From positions 1 through 37,254 of the forward strand of contig JAUSPO010000034.1 in the NCBI GenBank assembly GCA_030656575.1: a stretch of 37,254 bases of DNA. Direction: 5' to 3'. The notes beneath the pieces were generated by a model that saw only the letters and a list, made by a program, of their open reading frames with translations, searched no databases and was not told where the DNA came from. Shown here in pieces: positions 26,336 through 33,782 of the stretch (its first letter is position 1; each line of letters opens with the position of its first letter). A program made the translations under genes and the position numbers. This stretch comes from Bacillota bacterium (lineage in GTDB: Bacteria; Bacillota; Dethiobacteria; DTU022; UBA8154).

Positions 26336-27355
26336 CTAGAGCCTCCCCAGGTGAGATACAACCTGCTGAATGACGGCAACCGTTTTGGCGTAATTCATCC
26401 GCGTGGGTCCTAATACACCAATAGTTCCTACTACTTCCTTGCCCAGACAATACGTCGCCATCACAAGGCTGCATTCCTGTACTTCTTCCAGAATATTTTC
26501 CGTTCCAATCTTAATTATGACACCATCCACACCTGCTACCGGCCTTGCCAGCAGATTTGCCAACAGGGAATGCTGTTCGAAAAGAGCCAGTAATGATTTT
26601 ACCTTCCCAATGTCCCCAAATTCAGGCTGATTAAGTATATTTGTAGTACCACCCAGAAAAACCCGCCTTTCGTCTTCAGCAAGGCTGTCTCCCAGCAGAG
26701 TAAATGTATCTTCAAGAAATTTAATATGTTGATAAAGATCACGGCGTATTTCACTGATCAGTTTGGATGTAATTGTATCGATGGTAAGGCCTTCCATGCG
26801 CATGTTAAGATAAGTAACGATACGATTTAATTCGTTTGCAGACAGGGTATGGGGTAAATTAATTACCTTGTTTTTTACAAACCCCGTATCAGCAACCAGG
26901 ATCAGCAGCCCTCTTTGATGATCAACCGGCATAATCTGAAGCTTCTTAAAGGCACTTTTTTTTAGTTGTGGTCCTAATATCAAAGAGGTATAGTTGGTAA
27001 GCAGAGAAAGAAGACGGGAAGTGTGCCTGATGATTTCCTCTATTTCTTTTAGTTTCTCATATTCATACACTTGTTTAATCTTGGCTTTATCTTCATCCTC
27101 AAGGTCAGATTTCTCCATGAGCTGATCCACATAATACCTGTATCCAATCTGGGAAGGTATCCTCCCGGCAGAAGTATGGGGTTGGATTAAATAGCCCGCC
27201 TCTTCGAGGTCTGCCATTTCATTTCTGATTGTAGCCGGACTTAACCCTACCATGTATCGCCTCGCAATTGTACGGGACCCAACAGGTTGGGCAGATTTAA
27301 CGTAATCAGTGATCACTGCCTGTAAGATCTGTTTTTTTCTCGCGCTTAACCCCAC
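26336..27355 (-). CDS. hrcA: Heat-shock repressor HrcA
   Basis: HrcA binds CIRCE and is held active by GroEL. The GTG at 27355 is six bases after GAGGTG, giving 339 residues. Residues 1-75 are the winged helix (GSRTIARRYMVGLSPATIRNEMADLEEAG, in pieces). A GAF-like domain and the conserved VFLGGTTNILNQPEF follow. LGPTRMNYAKTVAVIQQV is the typical end. It is the first gene of the operon and directly follows the CIRCE site, so it represses itself. Confidence 0.97.
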   Translation of the reverse strand: MGLSARKKQILQAVITDYVKSAQPVGSRTIARRYMVGLSPATIRNEMADLEEAGYLIQPHTSAGRIPSQIGYRYYVDQLMEKSDLEDEDKAKIKQVYEYEKLKEIEEIIRHTSRLLSLLTNYTSLILGPQLKKSAFKKLQIMPVDHQRGLLILVADTGFVKNKVINLPHTLSANELNRIVTYLNMRMEGLTIDTITSKLISEIRRDLYQHIKFLEDTFTLLGDSLAEDERRVFLGGTTNILNQPEFGDIGKVKSLLALFEQHSLLANLLARPVAGVDGVIIKIGTENILEEVQECSLVMATYCLGKEVVGTIGVLGPTRMNYAKTVAVIQQVVSHLGRL

Positions 27356-27376
27356 TTTAATCACCTCTTTTTGATG

Positions 27377-27403
27377 TTAGCACTCGAACATCGAGAGTGC
27401 TAA
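27377..27403 (-). promoter_or_regulatory. CIRCE operator
   Basis: A perfect inverted repeat TTAGCACTC-N9-GAGTGCTAA, the canonical CIRCE consensus, lies 22 bases before the hrcA start and just downstream of the promoter. It is the binding site of HrcA. Confidence 0.98.
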
Positions 27404-27415
27404 CCGTCCATTTTT

Positions 27416-27444
27416 ACAATATCACCCACTTTTACTTTTGTCAA
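27416..27444 (-). promoter_or_regulatory. Sigma-A promoter of the hrcA-grpE-dnaK-dnaJ operon
   Basis: On the minus strand TTGACA (27439-27444) is followed after 17 bases by TATTGT (27416-27421). The transcription start would fall at the edge of CIRCE, the common arrangement for HrcA repression. Bases 27445-27636 hold nothing else that I recognise. Confidence 0.85.
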
Positions 27445-27636
27445 GTTACTTTTATATAAACTATATAAACCTCACAGCATAATATCTCATTAAAGGGAAA
27501 AAGAGCCTTGAGATAGTATTGACTCTCTACGAAAAGGAAATACAGCATAAAAACAGTAAGTAAAAAAAACAAGTAAACTCGTTTAATTTAGCTGAAACAT
27601 CGGGGAATTAGATGGAGAATCTGCTCTACCTAATTG

Positions 27637-27671
27637 AAAAGCCCCACCTGCGTATGCTTATAGGTGGGGGC
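27637..27671 (-). terminator. Rho-independent terminator of the GGDEF/HD-GYP gene
   Basis: On the minus strand GCCCCCACCT pairs with AGGTGGGGC around a 12-base loop and is followed by TTTT. It lies about 75 bases beyond the stop at 27746. The same GGTGGGGGC hairpin is common at IS200/IS605 ends, so an element scar is an alternative. Confidence 0.7.
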
Positions 27672-27745
27672 TTAAACCAGGATAAATTTTTGACTTATCA
27701 ACTTAAAACATCTCATTTCCACTGCATCAATCCTTTATTTCTTCC

Positions 27746-29521
27746 TCATCCAAAGAGTTTTGTAAACATTTTCACCATCTCCGGGTCAAACTGGGTACCG
27801 GAACAACGTTTAATCTCTGATACGGCATCCTCATGGGAGAGGGGCTTACGATAAGGGCGTTCGTTTGTCATGGCCCGGTAAGCATCAACAATAGAAATAA
27901 TACGGCAGGCAGCCGGTATTTCATTTTTCTTGAGACCAAAAGGATAACCTTCCCCGTTCCACCATTCGTGATGGGAAAGAATAAAATCAGCTACACTGGC
28001 CAATTCTGAGGACGATAGAGCAATTTGATACCCTATTTCGGGATGTTTCTGCATGGCTTTCTTCTCTTCAGGCAGCAGTTCACCGTTTTTATAAAGGATA
28101 TTATCCGGTACTCCAAGTATTCCAATATCGTGAACCAGTGATAAAACAGAAATCAAAGCAATCTCTTTTTCAGTGAGACCGGCTTTACTGGCAAGGGCAA
28201 CAGCCATGGATTTAATATTATTATTTTCTTCCTTAAAATAATTGCTGCTGTTAAAAGTTGAAATAAATGATTGGACAAATGAATTCTTAACACTATTTGT
28301 TTTTTCTGCTTTTTTTTGATACATAGCACTATCAGCTTTCTTAAAAGTATCCAATAGGGAATGATCGCTTGAGACACTGGTACTTACCCCTAAGGAGATA
28401 CTTAAAGGCAGTTCTGGATTGGAAGCGTTATAGTTTGTGATCGATTCATCAATGCGGCTGCAGACTTCTTTAGCCACTTCCTCCGAAGTATGAGGTAGGA
28501 GTACGACAAACTCATCGCCTCCAATTCTGGCAATCATGTCCGAAGAACGAAAGCGGGAACTAATTGTATCTGCAGCGGCCTTGAGGAGACGGTCTCCCTT
28601 ATCATGTCCCAGAGTATCGTTCACCAGTTTAAGATCATCAACATCACCCATAATAATACTCACCGGTCGGAACCGGAGGGTTTCCAGCCTGCGAATCTCC
28701 TCTTCGAAATAGGCCCTGTTATAAATCCCTGTAAGGGAATCGTGAGTGCTGAGGTATTCCAATTTTTCTTCCACTTTTTTCCTTTGAGTAATATCCATCT
28801 CCATACGGATAGCTTCCAGGCAGCGAGTTCCTTCTATGACAGGAAACATGCTTGAATAAACCCAACGTTTTTCACCATCTACGGTAATAATGGAAGATTC
28901 CCTTGCTTCCACGGGTTGACCTTTACTAAAGACCCTTTCCAGATCATCTTTAAACTTTTCTCTCTCCTTACCTTCCAGGAAAAGCTCATGAAAAGGCTTC
29001 TCCAAGACTTCTTTTATACCCTTACCGTATAGTTTTTCCGAAACAGGATTCCAGTGATAGATAGAACCATTTATATCAAAACCCTGAACAGCCACTAAAG
29101 GCGTATTCTCTATTATTGATTCAAAACGTCCCGAGGCATCAATTAGAGCTTTTTCAGCCCACTTTCTTTCAGTAATATCTCTGGCAACGCCTGTTACCTC
29201 TGTTGGTTTTCCTCCTTCATAATGGACGACACTTCGGTATTCCAGAACCCTTTCCATCCCTTTCTGCGAACAAAAGCTAACTGCATTTACAACAATTTTT
29301 TCCTTCTGAATAATCTCAAGGTATTTCGAAAACTTCTCATGATAACGGACAGGCAAAAAATCTGAGATATTTTTATTGATTACATGCTCTGCTGTATAAC
29401 CTAGCAATTTAAAGACATGATTGTTAATATAGAGAAGATTGCCTTCCATATCATGGACATATAAAAGGTCATCGAGATCATTAAAAACGTCTGGGAAAAG
29501 CCGCCCGGGAATGCCTGGCAT
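27746..29521 (-). CDS. PAS-PAS-GGDEF-HD-GYP cyclic-di-GMP signalling protein
   Basis: The 591-residue product has two PAS domains (about 8-120 and 127-245), a GGDEF domain (about 250-405) with an intact ARIGGDEF active site and the RxxD inhibitory site (RSSD five residues upstream), and a C-terminal HD-GYP domain (about 425-590). The HD-GYP has HDIG, QKHPEIGYQI, HHEWWNGEGYP and VDAYRAM, but reads HDIGIL where HDIGK is usual, and the early HSxRV His is absent. It could make c-di-GMP, with the HD-GYP being weak or regulatory. No membrane segment is present. The ATG follows GAAAGGA, with its own promoter and terminator. Confidence 0.88.
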   Translation of the reverse strand: MPGIPGRLFPDVFNDLDDLLYVHDMEGNLLYINNHVFKLLGYTAEHVINKNISDFLPVRYHEKFSKYLEIIQKEKIVVNAVSFCSQKGMERVLEYRSVVHYEGGKPTEVTGVARDITERKWAEKALIDASGRFESIIENTPLVAVQGFDINGSIYHWNPVSEKLYGKGIKEVLEKPFHELFLEGKEREKFKDDLERVFSKGQPVEARESSIITVDGEKRWVYSSMFPVIEGTRCLEAIRMEMDITQRKKVEEKLEYLSTHDSLTGIYNRAYFEEEIRRLETLRFRPVSIIMGDVDDLKLVNDTLGHDKGDRLLKAAADTISSRFRSSDMIARIGGDEFVVLLPHTSEEVAKEVCSRIDESITNYNASNPELPLSISLGVSTSVSSDHSLLDTFKKADSAMYQKKAEKTNSVKNSFVQSFISTFNSSNYFKEENNNIKSMAVALASKAGLTEKEIALISVLSLVHDIGILGVPDNILYKNGELLPEEKKAMQKHPEIGYQIALSSSELASVADFILSHHEWWNGEGYPFGLKKNEIPAACRIISIVDAYRAMTNERPYRKPLSHEDAVSEIKRCSGTQFDPEMVKMFTKLFG

Positions 29522-29556
29522 TTAAATTTTCCTTTCGAAAAAAAATAATCATTTCC

Positions 29557-29598
29557 ATTATAACAAATTTTTATAGATTTAACAAATTTTTATAGATT
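29557..29598 (-). promoter_or_regulatory. Promoter of the GGDEF/HD-GYP gene within a 19-base tandem repeat
   Basis: The plus strand shows TAACAAATTTTTATAGATT twice in perfect tandem at 29561-29579 and 29580-29598. On the minus strand TTGTTA (29580-29585) and TATAAT (29557-29562) are 17 bases apart, so the -35 is in one copy and the -10 begins at the end of the other. The repeat may bind a regulator or may just be a duplication. Confidence 0.7.
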
Positions 29599-29622
29599 GA
29601 ATATACCACCAAAGGATACTTT

Positions 29623-31767
29623 TTATAATATTCTTGCCTTTTCGATAGCCACTTTTACCTCAGCAGGAACGTAATAACGTTGATGTGGATCAATATGCAT
29701 CAGTTTAAGAATGATTTCTTCCAGATCTGGTGGAACAGCAGGGTTAAAGAGTCGGGGAGAGGTCATTTTTCCAGACCGGTGGAAAGATACTACCGCCCTT
29801 AAGCTGCGCTCCCGAAAAGGAAGTATCCCTGTAACCAGTTCAAAAAAAATTAATCCGAGGGAATAGAGATCGGCGCGGTGATCCACCCCCTGTAATGACA
29901 TCTCAAGGGTGCTGTTTCGGCTCTGTGCATTCATCCTGCCGCTTAAGAAACCTCTTCTATTAAATCTTTCAGGGGCAGCATATAAATAATTCTCTAAAAA
30001 AGATCGGCGCATTTGCAGTACGCTGGAAGAATAAACAGCATTCCCTTCCAAAGCCCATAAAAGGTCAATATCACTGATTTTGACTGCATCATGATCTGAA
30101 AATAGGATATTCTCCGGCTTTAAAGCGCCATAAAGCATTGCCCCCTTTTCCCGGTAAATGTAATCAAGCGCAGCAGTAATTTGCAGGACAATACCTGCCG
30201 CCCGTGTTACTGTTAAAGGTGCCCGGGAACTAATAAGCTCTGTTAAGTTACCTCCCGACATGTATTCCATTGCATAAAAAAAACAATCGTCATAGTAACA
30301 ATCCTCAAAGAGAGCAGCAATTCCGGGATTTGACATTGCTCTTACAGTCCTTAGCAATCCCAAAATACGACGGACAACCAAAGGATCAGAGAGCAGGTCT
30401 TTGCTGATCTGTTTTATAACAACCTTTTTGCCGCTTGCTCTCTCCCTTGCCAGAATAATCTGCCCGCCGGAAACGTTCCATCCTGCTTCCACTGCCTCGT
30501 ATTTTCTCCAAAAACTCTCTCCCATACTTCTCCTGCCGATATCTTTTCTGAGTTCGTATTGCGAATCGGTCAGGCAGATGCACTCACGCCATTTTCCACC
30601 CCGGTATCTTTCTTCAGTAGAATCATCCATAAGTTCACATAGCTTCATAAAGTCTGAACGAAAAGAGATCCTTTGCTGCGCGGGTATACCTGCTGATAGC
30701 TCTTCAGCCTCTATAAATTTCCCCTGATGCAGGAGGACACGCGCAAGACCGATCTGGGCCTTCCAAAACAAAGAATGGTCAGGAGTTACTATTCTATAAT
30801 ATTTTTCCGCCTGGCTCCACTGCTCACTGCTTTCTTTAATTAAACCCAGGAAAAAAATCCTGGAATGGGCTGCATCCGGACTGTCTTCTAGCAGGCTTAG
30901 ATTCAAAGTCTCCTCGGCACGGACTAAATCGTTGAGGAGATAATAAATGTAAGAGAGGTCCAAGGCCGTCCAGAAATCTTTATCCAGCCTAAAAGCATCC
31001 TCCAGATATTTCCTGGCTTCAATAAACATCCCCATCCGCCTATACAATCGTCCCAACCTTAATAAAAGCTGAGAATCATCCGGTTCCAGGATTAATAGTC
31101 TAAGGTAAAAACGGATTTTGTCCATATCTGTAAGACAATAACGTAAAGCATCCCGGTAAAGAAGAAACACTTCTTTTTCTCTCTCCGGAAAATTCTCCAT
31201 GATACGGCCTAAACTTTCATAAATATCCAGATCTTTGGGATTTTGTTTTAGAGCTTGTCTGTAAAGCAGTTCTGCTTCGTTCAGATAGGAAGGACCCATT
31301 GTGTAACAAGCTCGCCCAGACTTTTTAATGAGAAGTGGATCTAGCGGATTATCTTTTAATAATTCCCGGTAAAAAATTAACGCTTCTTTTGGTAAGCCAT
31401 GGTCAAAAAGAAAATCTCCCAGCTGCATCAATGTGCGGTAAAGCACACTCAAACGATGAGGACGTCGGCAAAGGTATTTCCCAGCCTTTTTGTTTTGAGA
31501 TACATCCTCTAATAATGAGAAAAGAAGAAGGCAGTACTTTCTTGCATTATCAAATCGCTCAGCAGACAATTCCAAATCTATTACCTTTAAAAGGTTTGCC
31601 ACCTTTGATTCTTCGGGAGAAAATTGTTCTTCAATAACAGCTATCTCCATCCCTGAAAAGCAGGCTTCGGAAGATAGATACAAACCGAATTCCACTCCAA
31701 ACAAAGCACCAAGATAACCCGCTAAATGATTTGATAAAAGCTCTGCCTCATTTTCCCTTTTTAACAT
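29623..31767 (-). CDS. TPR protein with C-terminal protein-kinase fold lacking catalytic residues
   Basis: The 714-residue product has an unknown N-terminal part (1-100), TPR-like repeats (about 105-380: KEALIFYRELLKDNPLDPL, EAELLYRQALKQNPKDLDIY) and a kinase-like domain (about 430-714). The kinase Lys is kept in VVIKQI, PEN in LKPENILF and the activation-end motif in YAAPERF. The catalytic loop HRD reads YGA, the DFG reads DID, and the alpha-C Glu appears to be Leu. By these changes it is a likely pseudokinase. Membrane segments are absent. The ATG follows AAGGAG. Bacterial Ser/Thr kinases usually carry the kinase at the N-terminus, so this order is also unusual. Confidence 0.85.
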   Translation of the reverse strand: MLKRENEAELLSNHLAGYLGALFGVEFGLYLSSEACFSGMEIAVIEEQFSPEESKVANLLKVIDLELSAERFDNARKYCLLLFSLLEDVSQNKKAGKYLCRRPHRLSVLYRTLMQLGDFLFDHGLPKEALIFYRELLKDNPLDPLLIKKSGRACYTMGPSYLNEAELLYRQALKQNPKDLDIYESLGRIMENFPEREKEVFLLYRDALRYCLTDMDKIRFYLRLLILEPDDSQLLLRLGRLYRRMGMFIEARKYLEDAFRLDKDFWTALDLSYIYYLLNDLVRAEETLNLSLLEDSPDAAHSRIFFLGLIKESSEQWSQAEKYYRIVTPDHSLFWKAQIGLARVLLHQGKFIEAEELSAGIPAQQRISFRSDFMKLCELMDDSTEERYRGGKWRECICLTDSQYELRKDIGRRSMGESFWRKYEAVEAGWNVSGGQIILARERASGKKVVIKQISKDLLSDPLVVRRILGLLRTVRAMSNPGIAALFEDCYYDDCFFYAMEYMSGGNLTELISSRAPLTVTRAAGIVLQITAALDYIYREKGAMLYGALKPENILFSDHDAVKISDIDLLWALEGNAVYSSSVLQMRRSFLENYLYAAPERFNRRGFLSGRMNAQSRNSTLEMSLQGVDHRADLYSLGLIFFELVTGILPFRERSLRAVVSFHRSGKMTSPRLFNPAVPPDLEEIILKLMHIDPHQRYYVPAEVKVAIEKARIL

Positions 31768-31830
31768 GTGAATTCTCCTTCAACCCTTCTACAAACGGAG
31801 ATTTCCTTCTCCGAAGGATCTATATGAAAA

Positions 31831-31860
31831 ATTATACCATTTTAGGGTAAATGATGGCAA
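31831..31860 (-). promoter_or_regulatory. Sigma-A promoter of the TPR-pseudokinase gene
   Basis: On the minus strand TTGCCA (31855-31860) is followed after 18 bases by a perfect TATAAT (31831-31836). A small hairpin CGGAGA / TCTCCG lies in the leader before the SD. Confidence 0.65.
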
Positions 31861-31867
31861 GGCAAAC

Positions 31868-31894
31868 AAAAAAAGCATCCCGTTTTAAGGATGC
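31868..31894 (-). terminator. Rho-independent terminator after the spoIIP unit
   Basis: A 6-base stem GCATCC / GGATGC with an 8-base loop is followed on the minus strand by seven T residues (31868-31874). It sits a few bases beyond the small membrane-protein gene and directly before the pseudokinase promoter. Confidence 0.85.
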
Positions 31895-31899
31895 CCTCA

Positions 31900-32145
31900 T
31901 CAAAATGGTAAAAGCCGACGTAACTTCTCCAGGCAGGATCTATAAGGCAAATAATAATTATCCCCTGCAAAGGTAATTAATAATTCACCGTCTGTAAGTT
32001 TAAAATCCAGCGACGCCAGTGGGCCTTCTAGGGCAAGGATCTCCTGCATCCCTCTTTCTGCTGTATTCAGTCCCCAGGAAAGGAATAAGACCAGAAGTAA
32101 TATTCCCAAAAAGAAGAAGGCTAATGGTTTCTTTATCATAGGCAT
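31900..32145 (-). CDS. Small anchored protein downstream of spoIIP, YqxA-like
   Basis: The 81-residue product has one N-terminal membrane helix (about residues 8-24) with a following NTAERGMQEI, then a short beta-rich domain ending in a basic tail. B. subtilis spoIIP is followed by yqxA, a small one-helix protein with a similar helix and a Gly-Met after it, so position and pattern agree, but similarity is weak. The first ATG is used; a second ATG six bases on is possible. It is 65 bases after spoIIP and ends at a terminator. Confidence 0.65.
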   Translation of the reverse strand: MPMIKKPLAFFFLGILLLVLFLSWGLNTAERGMQEILALEGPLASLDFKLTDGELLITFAGDNYYLPYRSCLEKLRRLLPF

Positions 32146-32210
32146 TTCTTCCTTTCATACCTTTAGCCTATACTTTTAACCGAAATTATTGTTTTTATGC
32201 CTGCCCTTAG

Positions 32211-33311
32211 TTACTCAAAGGCTCCTGCCAGCACTTCTGCCAGGTAAGGAATGGCCCTTACCACTTCCTCCCTAGTGTTTTCGTGGCCTCCGATCTCCAC
32301 AAGCACGTTTCTGGGATGCAGGTCCTGGTTGTAGATGAAAGGATACTGCCTTACCCCTCTGGAAAGGCCAGGATATTTTTCAGCTATAGTATTTTGCAAA
32401 AAGAGCACAAATCGTAAATTATTGCTCCATTGACTGTGGCTCTTCCCAACAACAAAAAGGATATTGCCCGTAGAGTCCCCCCCCAAAGTCGTTGTTGATA
32501 CACGTCTGGAAACACCATCCCGGTGCAGATCCACCACTACCTGAATTTGAGGGTTCTGCTTCAGAATTTCTTGAATTGACGGGCGGGCAACTTCATAGGC
32601 GCCAGTGCGGGGGACATCAAATACTTCCTGATGGTGCAGAACAGGAATTCCGTATTCATCCTCCAGAAGCTGTGCCAGGTATGCACCAAGAAAAACCACT
32701 GTCTTTTCCGGATTATCCGAAAACGCACTCCCGGAAAGAGGGATAAATGATTCAGAGGCATGAGTATGGTAAATCAACATTAATGGCTGTTCGGAATTCG
32801 AAGTAACGGGAAATTCCCTGGAGTCTCCATACCTTCTCTCCGTTAAAAAAGATACACTTTCTGCCTTTTCCTCCACTGGAGGCTGCGGGGATGCCAACTC
32901 CTCGACATATTCATCGGTAATAGCAGAAAGAAGAGCCTGTGAGCTATTCATCGAACTAAAACCGACCAATCCATTATGCAGCAGTATCTTGGGATAACTA
33001 TAGACAGGCCATTTTAGATCGACGCTTATATTATCCCCCGAAATATCTTCACCTGCTTTTAATCGCATACCTGGCAGTGATTGCCTGATAAGGTTAAGAT
33101 AATCCACTCGAATACCTTTTGAAAAAAAAGCATTAGAGGTATTGGTGCTTCCGGAAAAAAAAGTATTAAAAGAAAAAAAGACCGTCAGTAAAACTGCAGC
33201 GCCTATGAGCAAAAACGAAACCAGATCTCTACCTGGTAAATATTTTTTACCGGAACGATACCGTAAAGGCATTCTTGACCCATAGGGAAACTGATATCTT
33301 GCCGCTGGCAT
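32211..33311 (-). CDS. spoIIP: Stage II sporulation protein P
   Basis: SpoIIP is the amidase and endopeptidase that works with SpoIID and SpoIIM to thin septal peptidoglycan during engulfment. The 366-residue product has a membrane helix at about 31-50 and the catalytic domain (about 165-366) with LMLIYHTHASESF (zinc His), QVVVDLHRDGVSR and NVLVEIGGHENT. The length is normal. The ATG follows TGAGGGGG. A sigma-E promoter candidate lies 23 bases upstream. The gpr gene, a common neighbour, is not here. Confidence 0.94.
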   Translation of the reverse strand: MPAARYQFPYGSRMPLRYRSGKKYLPGRDLVSFLLIGAAVLLTVFFSFNTFFSGSTNTSNAFFSKGIRVDYLNLIRQSLPGMRLKAGEDISGDNISVDLKWPVYSYPKILLHNGLVGFSSMNSSQALLSAITDEYVEELASPQPPVEEKAESVSFLTERRYGDSREFPVTSNSEQPLMLIYHTHASESFIPLSGSAFSDNPEKTVVFLGAYLAQLLEDEYGIPVLHHQEVFDVPRTGAYEVARPSIQEILKQNPQIQVVVDLHRDGVSRRVSTTTLGGDSTGNILFVVGKSHSQWSNNLRFVLFLQNTIAEKYPGLSRGVRQYPFIYNQDLHPRNVLVEIGGHENTREEVVRAIPYLAEVLAGAFE

Positions 33312-33333
33312 AAAAATACCCCCTCAAAATATA

Positions 33334-33362
33334 CTTATATGATGAAGGGGGAAAGAATATGC
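33334..33362 (-). promoter_or_regulatory. Candidate sigma-E promoter of spoIIP
   Basis: On the minus strand GCATATT (33356-33362) is followed after 14 bases by CATATAAG (33334-33341). It fits the sigma-E pattern KMATATT and CATACA-T well, and spoIIP is a known sigma-E gene in B. subtilis. Confidence 0.65.
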
Positions 33363-33413
33363 CAGTACTATTCATGTATCAAAAATCAGTAGTCAAAATT
33401 AAAAAATGTAGTT

Positions 33414-33782
33414 TTATGCTCTGCCAAGCTTATAGTCTTTAATGGCATTATGAAGGGCGTCGGCAGCTAAATTGGAACAGTGAAGTTTGGCAGGAGGTAG
33501 TCCGCCTAATTCTTCAGCAACGTGTTTGTTGGTTACTTCCAGGGCGTCATCTATAGTTTTACCCTTTACCATCTCTGTCAAAGCACTGCTGCTGGCGATT
33601 GCTGCTCCACAGCCAAAAGTTAAAAACCTGATATCTTCAATGACATCATTCTCAACTTTAATAAATATTTTCATAATATCCCCGCATTTCATATTACCCA
33701 CTTCTCCTACGCCGCTTGGATTATCCATTTCTCCGACGTTACGGGGATTTTGAAAATGATCCATTACTTTTTCATTATACAT
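33414..33782 (-). CDS. iscU: Fe-S cluster scaffold protein IscU/NifU type
   Basis: The scaffold takes sulfur from IscS and assembles Fe-S clusters. The ATG at 33782 is close after GAGGGGAAG; the upstream in-frame start at 33830 has no SD. The 122-residue product keeps the three cluster Cys in MKCGD, FGCGAA and LHCSN, with the cluster Asp next to the first. The YNEKVMDHFQNPRNVG start is typical. It follows iscS by 48 bases in an iscR-iscS-iscU order seen in Clostridia. Confidence 0.95.
   Translation of the reverse strand: MYNEKVMDHFQNPRNVGEMDNPSGVGEVGNMKCGDIMKIFIKVENDVIEDIRFLTFGCGAAIASSSALTEMVKGKTIDDALEVTNKHVAEELGGLPPAKLHCSNLAADALHNAIKDYKLGRA

Follow-up and report, generated by a model that had tools for sequence, protein, structure and literature searches.

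The window, by which is meant the whole 37,254-nucleotide stretch of DNA analysed here, contains at 29623..31767 (-) a gene for a protein of 714 amino acids (P0001), in which a scaffold of TPR repeats is joined to a domain with the fold of a protein kinase. The frame is open from its ATG start, fills exactly these positions with the stop codon included, and has orthologues in other genomes. Upstream of it lie spoIIP (32211..33311 (-); Pfam SpoIIP 9e-63), which by synteny belongs to an old conserved block, and, between spoIIP and the gene, a small ORF for a membrane protein (31900..32145 (-)), which has 81 aa and is hydrophobic near its N-terminus. The small ORF is without any Pfam match and is conserved in the window's family and beyond, with the motif GLNxAExG ... 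FAG; its position resembles that of yqxA of B. subtilis. Downstream of the TPR-kinase gene is a gene encoding a PAS-PAS-GGDEF-HD protein (27746-29521, (-)).

A terminator-like hairpin with a T run (31871..31898 (-)) separates the small ORF from a sigma-A-like promoter, TTGCCA-18-TATAAT with an extended -10 (31831..31860 (-)), which stands directly upstream of the gene, scores 11/12 and is the top-scoring promoter in the 6.2 kb scanned (27300-33500). TATAAT is found at the same place in four more loci (L037, L039, L040 and L041), and the promoters of L040 and L041 score 10/12 in the same scan; no comparable TATAAT site was found at the g5 and g8 loci. The succession of hairpin and promoter supports the proposal of the preliminary description that the gene stands under its own promoter, and in the window's part of the family a predicted sigma-A-type promoter belonging to this gene is likely.

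Domain organisation and fold

Residues 1-50 (31618..31767 (-)) form a variable N-terminal segment with one helix (11-23) predicted by AlphaFold2 (AF2), whose confidence is low at residues 1-8 and 32-47. The TPR helical scaffold follows at residues 51-400 (30568..31617 (-)), its helices mostly modelled with pLDDT 84-96. Pfam TPR models span residues ~112-356, with a best value of 1e-14, and those over the Pfam cut-off are TPR_14, TPR_16, TPR_19, TPR_2, TPR_17, TPR_12 and TPR_8. The pseudokinase domain occupies residues 415-714 (29626..30525 (-)), as defined by Pfam Pkinase, by the fold match to PknB and by invariant columns; it opens, at the junction with the TPR region, with the invariant motif MG--FWRKYE (415-424). 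The Pfam Pkinase match itself covers residues 434-699 (E 3e-26), scoring 92.7 bits where the cut-off is 31.7. Within the domain, residues 602-627 (29887..29964 (-)) constitute an extra segment after APE that has no counterpart in the reference kinases aligned, and for which pLDDT falls below 50 at 606-627.

The AF2 model, for which 13 orthologues were used (mean pLDDT 83.4, pTM 0.80), shows TPR-like helices continuous to ~413 and then a two-lobed kinase fold. The order of TPR repeats on the N-terminal side of a kinase-like domain, as first described, is borne out by both Pfam and the model. In a Foldseek search the top match was PknB of M. tuberculosis (E ~1e-11, target TM ~0.83), and PknB also came first in a phmmer search of PDB sequences, with 23% identity. 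By profile and by fold, this is a Hanks-type (eukaryote-like) protein kinase fold. No transmembrane-like stretch was found by hydropathy, the top 19-residue Kyte-Doolittle mean being 1.49, at residue 633, and those of the orthologues being at most 1.81; the hydropathy of the protein indicates that it is soluble, and it may still associate peripherally with the membrane.

The nearest relatives by fold and sequence are therefore the PASTA kinases PrkC and PknB, with which the domain shares the beta-3 Lys, the PEN Asn, APE, the alpha-F Asp and the C-terminal Arg. It differs from them in having lost the HRD Asp, the alpha-C Glu and the DFG Gly, in its extra post-APE segment, and in bearing N-terminal TPRs where PASTA kinases have a transmembrane segment and PASTA repeats. 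No PASTA repeat was detected with Pfam, and the NCBIfam model PknB_PASTA_kin gave 119 bits against a cut-off of 450.

The kinase motifs

The kinase domains of the 13 family members, the window copy included, were aligned with those of 39 reference kinases, namely PrkC-like kinases drawn from the family, order, class and phylum of the window's genome, and one more distant kinase (L031). The beta-3 Lys, which is K452 in the motif VVIK (30412..30414 (-)), and the Asn of PEN, N553 in KPEN (30109..30111 (-)), are present in 13/13 members and 39/39 references, as is the Glu of APE; the alpha-F Asp and C-terminal Arg are retained too. Three other canonical residues are lost from the whole family. The alpha-C Glu, whose position is taken by L471 in the window copy (30355..30357 (-)), is found in 0/13 members and in 39/39 references. 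The catalytic Asp of HRD, where the window copy has YGA (546-548; 30124..30132 (-)), shows the same distribution, 0/13 versus 39/39, the column holding Ala in nine members, Gly in two and Asn in two. At DFG, which aligns with DID (566-568; 30064..30072 (-)), every reference has the Gly and no family member does, all 13 having Asp instead, while the first Asp of this motif is kept in nine of the 13 (Gly in four) and in 39/39 references. The family consensus reads HG[A/G/N] at HRD and [D/G]-F-D at DFG.

The motifs of the window copy are as the preliminary description gave them, with Lys and PEN kept, YGA for HRD, DID for DFG and, at the alpha-C position, a Leu. The search for the YGA and DID changes across homologues, which it had proposed, divides these changes into two kinds: the loss of the Asp and the change of Gly to Asp are family-wide, whereas the Tyr of YGA and the Ile of DID are found in the window copy only. 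The Gly loop of the window copy also departs from that of its relatives, with W430 and V432 (window 30472-30480) in place of glycines kept in 10/13 and 12/13, GxG being retained in most family members. The family signature further includes P433 (12/13) and, as invariant positions, G446, G547, D568 and APER.

With canonical motifs lost across all orthologues (the losses are shared by 13/13), the identification as a probable pseudokinase is strongly supported, and by sequence definition the protein is almost certainly one. The missing HRD Asp speaks against phosphotransfer. That the beta-3 Lys and the PEN Asn persist, and that an invariant Asp has newly appeared where DFG has its Gly, suggests a retained pocket; in the window copy two Gly-loop glycines are gone, so that nucleotide binding there may be weak or absent.

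A review published in 2025 names seven families of bacterial Ser/Thr pseudokinases, ActPs1–3, GLW, CP1, DYD and DLHK (PMC12599244). Its text contains no family that combines a beta-3 Lys, loss of the HRD Asp, an Asp at the DFG Gly and N-terminal TPRs, and TPR goes unmentioned in it. The DYD kinases share with the present family the absence of the alpha-C Glu (13/13 here), an Asp at the DFG Gly (13/13 here), the presence of the catalytic-loop Asn and an occurrence partly in Firmicutes; the second Asp of DYD has been modelled to pair with the beta-3 residue (PMC12599244). That residue is Arg in DYD and Lys in 13/13 members here, whose motif reads [D/G]FD; none of them has the HRD Asp, and a transmembrane-like segment is absent. 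The earlier remark that such proteins are little described was fair, since none of the seven families in the review text matches; the present family is apparently undescribed, being set apart by that text, although an unnamed or unclassified bin of the 42-family classification behind the review could hold it.

Replacement of the catalytic Asp by Asn (here also by Ala or Gly) is a feature shared with the pseudokinase domains of HER3 and the JAK kinases. In HER3 and JAK2-JH2 the Lys is bonded to the DFG Asp instead of to the alpha-C Glu, Asn stands for the catalytic Asp, and the JAK JH2 domains possess an activation-loop helix (PMC4718504). A helix at 569-574 immediately after DID, and more helices in the activation segment, likewise appear in the AF2 model. 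HER3 and JAK JH2 belong to the eukaryotic tyrosine-kinase group, and the resemblance is one of design, not of descent.

Distribution and genomic neighbourhood

Twelve further genomes of the window's GTDB family encode orthologues, at 38–53% identity; two of the 12 (G019 and G021) are near-identical (97%), and that of G007 ends at a contig end, kinase domain included. The gene occurs once per genome in all carriers found. In an unrooted tree with the reference kinases, a branch with SH-aLRT 100 separates the 13 members from the rest; other branches are long, so that the ancestral kinase cannot be read from this tree. Mean pairwise identity is 54% in the N-lobe, 47% in the C-lobe, 43% in the TPRs and 33% in the post-APE segment. 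By the Nei–Gojobori method dN/dS was 0.11–0.19 in six pairs, at dS 1.0–2.0, and 0.40 in one very close pair, a value that derives from few differences. The TPR-pseudokinase genes are under purifying selection. All orthologue frames are intact, and at the locus the gene is either whole or cleanly absent. The preliminary description had reasoned that homologues with intact HRD and DFG would make this copy just a decayed kinase; none of the 12 orthologues has them, and the same losses in all 12, together with dN/dS of 0.11–0.19, rule out a decayed copy.

Among 98 genomes of the class a single further relative was identified, in a genome (G025) from another family of the same order. This frame (L049 2052-3568) aligns with residues 68–513, with ~30% of positions identical, and stops short of the catalytic loop because its contig ends there; by alignment it has Tyr at the alpha-C Glu position. 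It sits downstream of ThiF-like and AIR-synthase-like genes. A second contig of the same genome, G025:C342, was considered as its missing C-terminal half and rejected, because what it carries is the beginning of a canonical PrkC-type kinase gene; by eye, a phosphatase-like frame lies upstream of that kinase start. A 749 aa frame on G008:C61, considered as a divergent orthologue, proved to be a PASTA kinase. A search of 398 genomes drawn from the phylum yielded no further full-length match at E ≤ 1e-45, and a pattern scan of GTDB contigs returned three orthologues already known and one weak kinase match. One of those three orthologues is from a metagenome-assembled genome (MAG) of Dethiobacter alkaliphilus, a species recorded as endospore-forming (PMC5609068). 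As far as searched, the TPR-pseudokinase family is confined to one lineage.

Where contigs reach far enough, carriers have the gene order iscR–nifS–nifU–spoIIP–small membrane ORF–pseudokinase–variable gene–hrcA–grpE–dnaK–dnaJ. The variable gene encodes a PAS-GGDEF-HD protein in the window's genome, G001, G011, G016 and G019 (the contig of G021 ends before it) and an adenine deaminase in three g8 genomes (by Pfam in L042 and L043, and as a same-sized ORF in L048), and it is missing from four g5 genomes. The c-di-GMP gene is thus absent or replaced in 7/13 carriers, and conversely the PAS-PAS-GGDEF-HD gene is present without the pseudokinase in two genomes (L053 and L055). The block as a whole is present without the pseudokinase in four genomes (G003, G006, G010 and G013), and in one genome of family f3 (L103) the order is iscR–nifS–nifU–spoIIP–small ORF–hrcA. 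More distant relatives have gpr–spoIIP–(small ORF)–lepA–hemW–hrcA (L098 and L099, by Pfam). The lepA and hemW genes that lie there between spoIIP and hrcA (L098 10560-12359 and 9416-10606; L099 4164-7107) are gone from this place in the window's family. Two g4 genomes share an equally long ORF of 146 aa at the pseudokinase locus (L041 8009-8449 and L053 8057-8497); the ORF of L041 encodes an EamA-like transporter and is a neighbour of the pseudokinase gene, which L053 lacks. Either the pseudokinase entered an old block or it was repeatedly lost from it.

As the block occurs in sister lineages without the pseudokinase, the neighbours do not define its role. A functional link to spoIIP by adjacency was rejected on this ground, and one to the c-di-GMP gene because other carriers lack that gene or have adenine deaminase in its stead, and because two non-carriers have it. 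The position between these two genes, from which the preliminary description had drawn its hint of a signal adaptor, is therefore a weak guide to role. SpoIIP is present in 13/13 carriers and the pseudokinase in 0/5 family genomes that lack SpoIIP (Fisher p 0.007), a co-occurrence confounded by common descent, by genome incompleteness and by the closeness of the two genes on the chromosome. A role in a defence system was also considered and rejected, since the PADLOC matches are generic to the kinase fold.

Proposed role and its alternatives

The reading preferred here, to which we would give a probability of roughly 0.55, is that of a lineage-specific soluble TPR-pseudokinase working as a non-catalytic adaptor. 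The adaptor role as such appears rather probable. MviN (ActPs3), a membrane-bound pseudokinase without the beta-3 Lys that does not bind ATP and that keeps its back-to-back contacts (PMC12599244), provides the precedent of a conserved bacterial pseudokinase with such a role, although the beta-3 Lys is kept here and the dimer contact positions are changed in 13/13. A Ser/Thr kinase domain and a TPR domain in one protein are known from PknG, an active kinase in which TPRs on the C-terminal side couple the signal to the substrate (PMC8546545); here the TPRs are N-terminal and the kinase motifs are lost. On the proposed mechanism the TPR-pseudokinase would transfer no phosphate. K452 would pair with D566 or D568, in replacement of the missing alpha-C Glu, and through this pairing many members would still be able to bind nucleotide. 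The TPR arm would dock a protein partner, by analogy with TPR proteins including PknG, and the pseudokinase arm with its post-APE loop might be a further surface for docking or a switch under nucleotide control. For nucleotide binding as a property of the family the chances seem evenly balanced, and for the window copy they are lower. The Gly that four of the 13 members have at the DFG Asp counts against this reading.

It would also be conceivable, if rather unlikely, that the kinase fold is a protein-binding surface only and takes no nucleotide, as in MviN or EssB/YukC. The alpha-C Glu and the catalytic Asp are gone in 13/13 and the DFG Asp in 4/13, the Gly loop is degraded in the window copy, and bacteria offer precedents in MviN and EssB (PMC12599244). 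Against this, all 13 members keep the beta-3 Lys, the PEN Asn and the Asp that has replaced the DFG Gly, and most keep GxG, which would be unexpected for a pocket without a ligand. The Lys and the Asn, with the DFG Asp kept in 9/13 and the HRD Asp lost, give a broadly SelO-like pattern (the SelO motifs are listed as WHLK / Hgvmntdn / DYG in a table of PMC12599244), from which it might be supposed that other ATP chemistry, such as AMPylation (SelO) or glutamylation (SidJ), is performed on a client held by the TPRs. This is improbable, because the DFG Asp is Gly in four members that are under similar constraint, and because the sequence relatives found are PrkC-type kinases and not SelO.

The genome of the window has only one other Pkinase match, a PASTA kinase, and no part of the pseudokinase protein is better conserved than its N-lobe, so a pairing with PrkC through a back-to-back N-lobe dimer of the PknB type also has to be weighed. 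We take R10, L33 and D76 to be the contacts of that dimer in PknB, partly on the basis of the titles of PDB mutant entries. The equivalents are all changed: that of L33 is Leu in 38/39 references and in 0/13 family members, that of D76 is Asp in 38/39 and in 0/13, and that of R10 is Arg in 39/39 references and Lys in 13/13 members. The changes make back-to-back pairing with PrkC unlikely, other modes of binding being possible, and a PrkC partnership is on the whole a slender prospect. Slighter still is the chance that the protein is a decayed, or a still active, atypical kinase. Kinases without canonical HRD or DFG are sometimes active, JAK2 JH2 and HER3 keeping low activity (PMC4718504), but here the position of the catalytic base is occupied by A, G or N, and the shared losses, the constraint and the intact frames described above all speak against decay.

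Few bacterial pseudokinases have a known role, and the seven named families are mostly of unknown function (PMC12599244). For the adaptor proposed here, the invariant Asp at the DFG Gly amounts to a single-residue prediction for nucleotide binding; if such binding is a family trait, the window copy, with its Tyr, its Ile and its Gly-loop oddities, is not the best member on which to test it. More tentatively, the combination of a TPR arm with a nucleotide-sensing, phosphotransfer-dead kinase fold may represent a new class of soluble switch, which would read ATP or another nucleotide while the TPR arm holds a client, in endospore-forming Dethiobacter-like Bacillota. The family is compact and single-copy, and has a fixed locus in a named lineage, and the window's genome yielded just one further protein with a Pkinase domain; these traits make it a clean case in which to ask why a kinase fold persists without phosphorylation.
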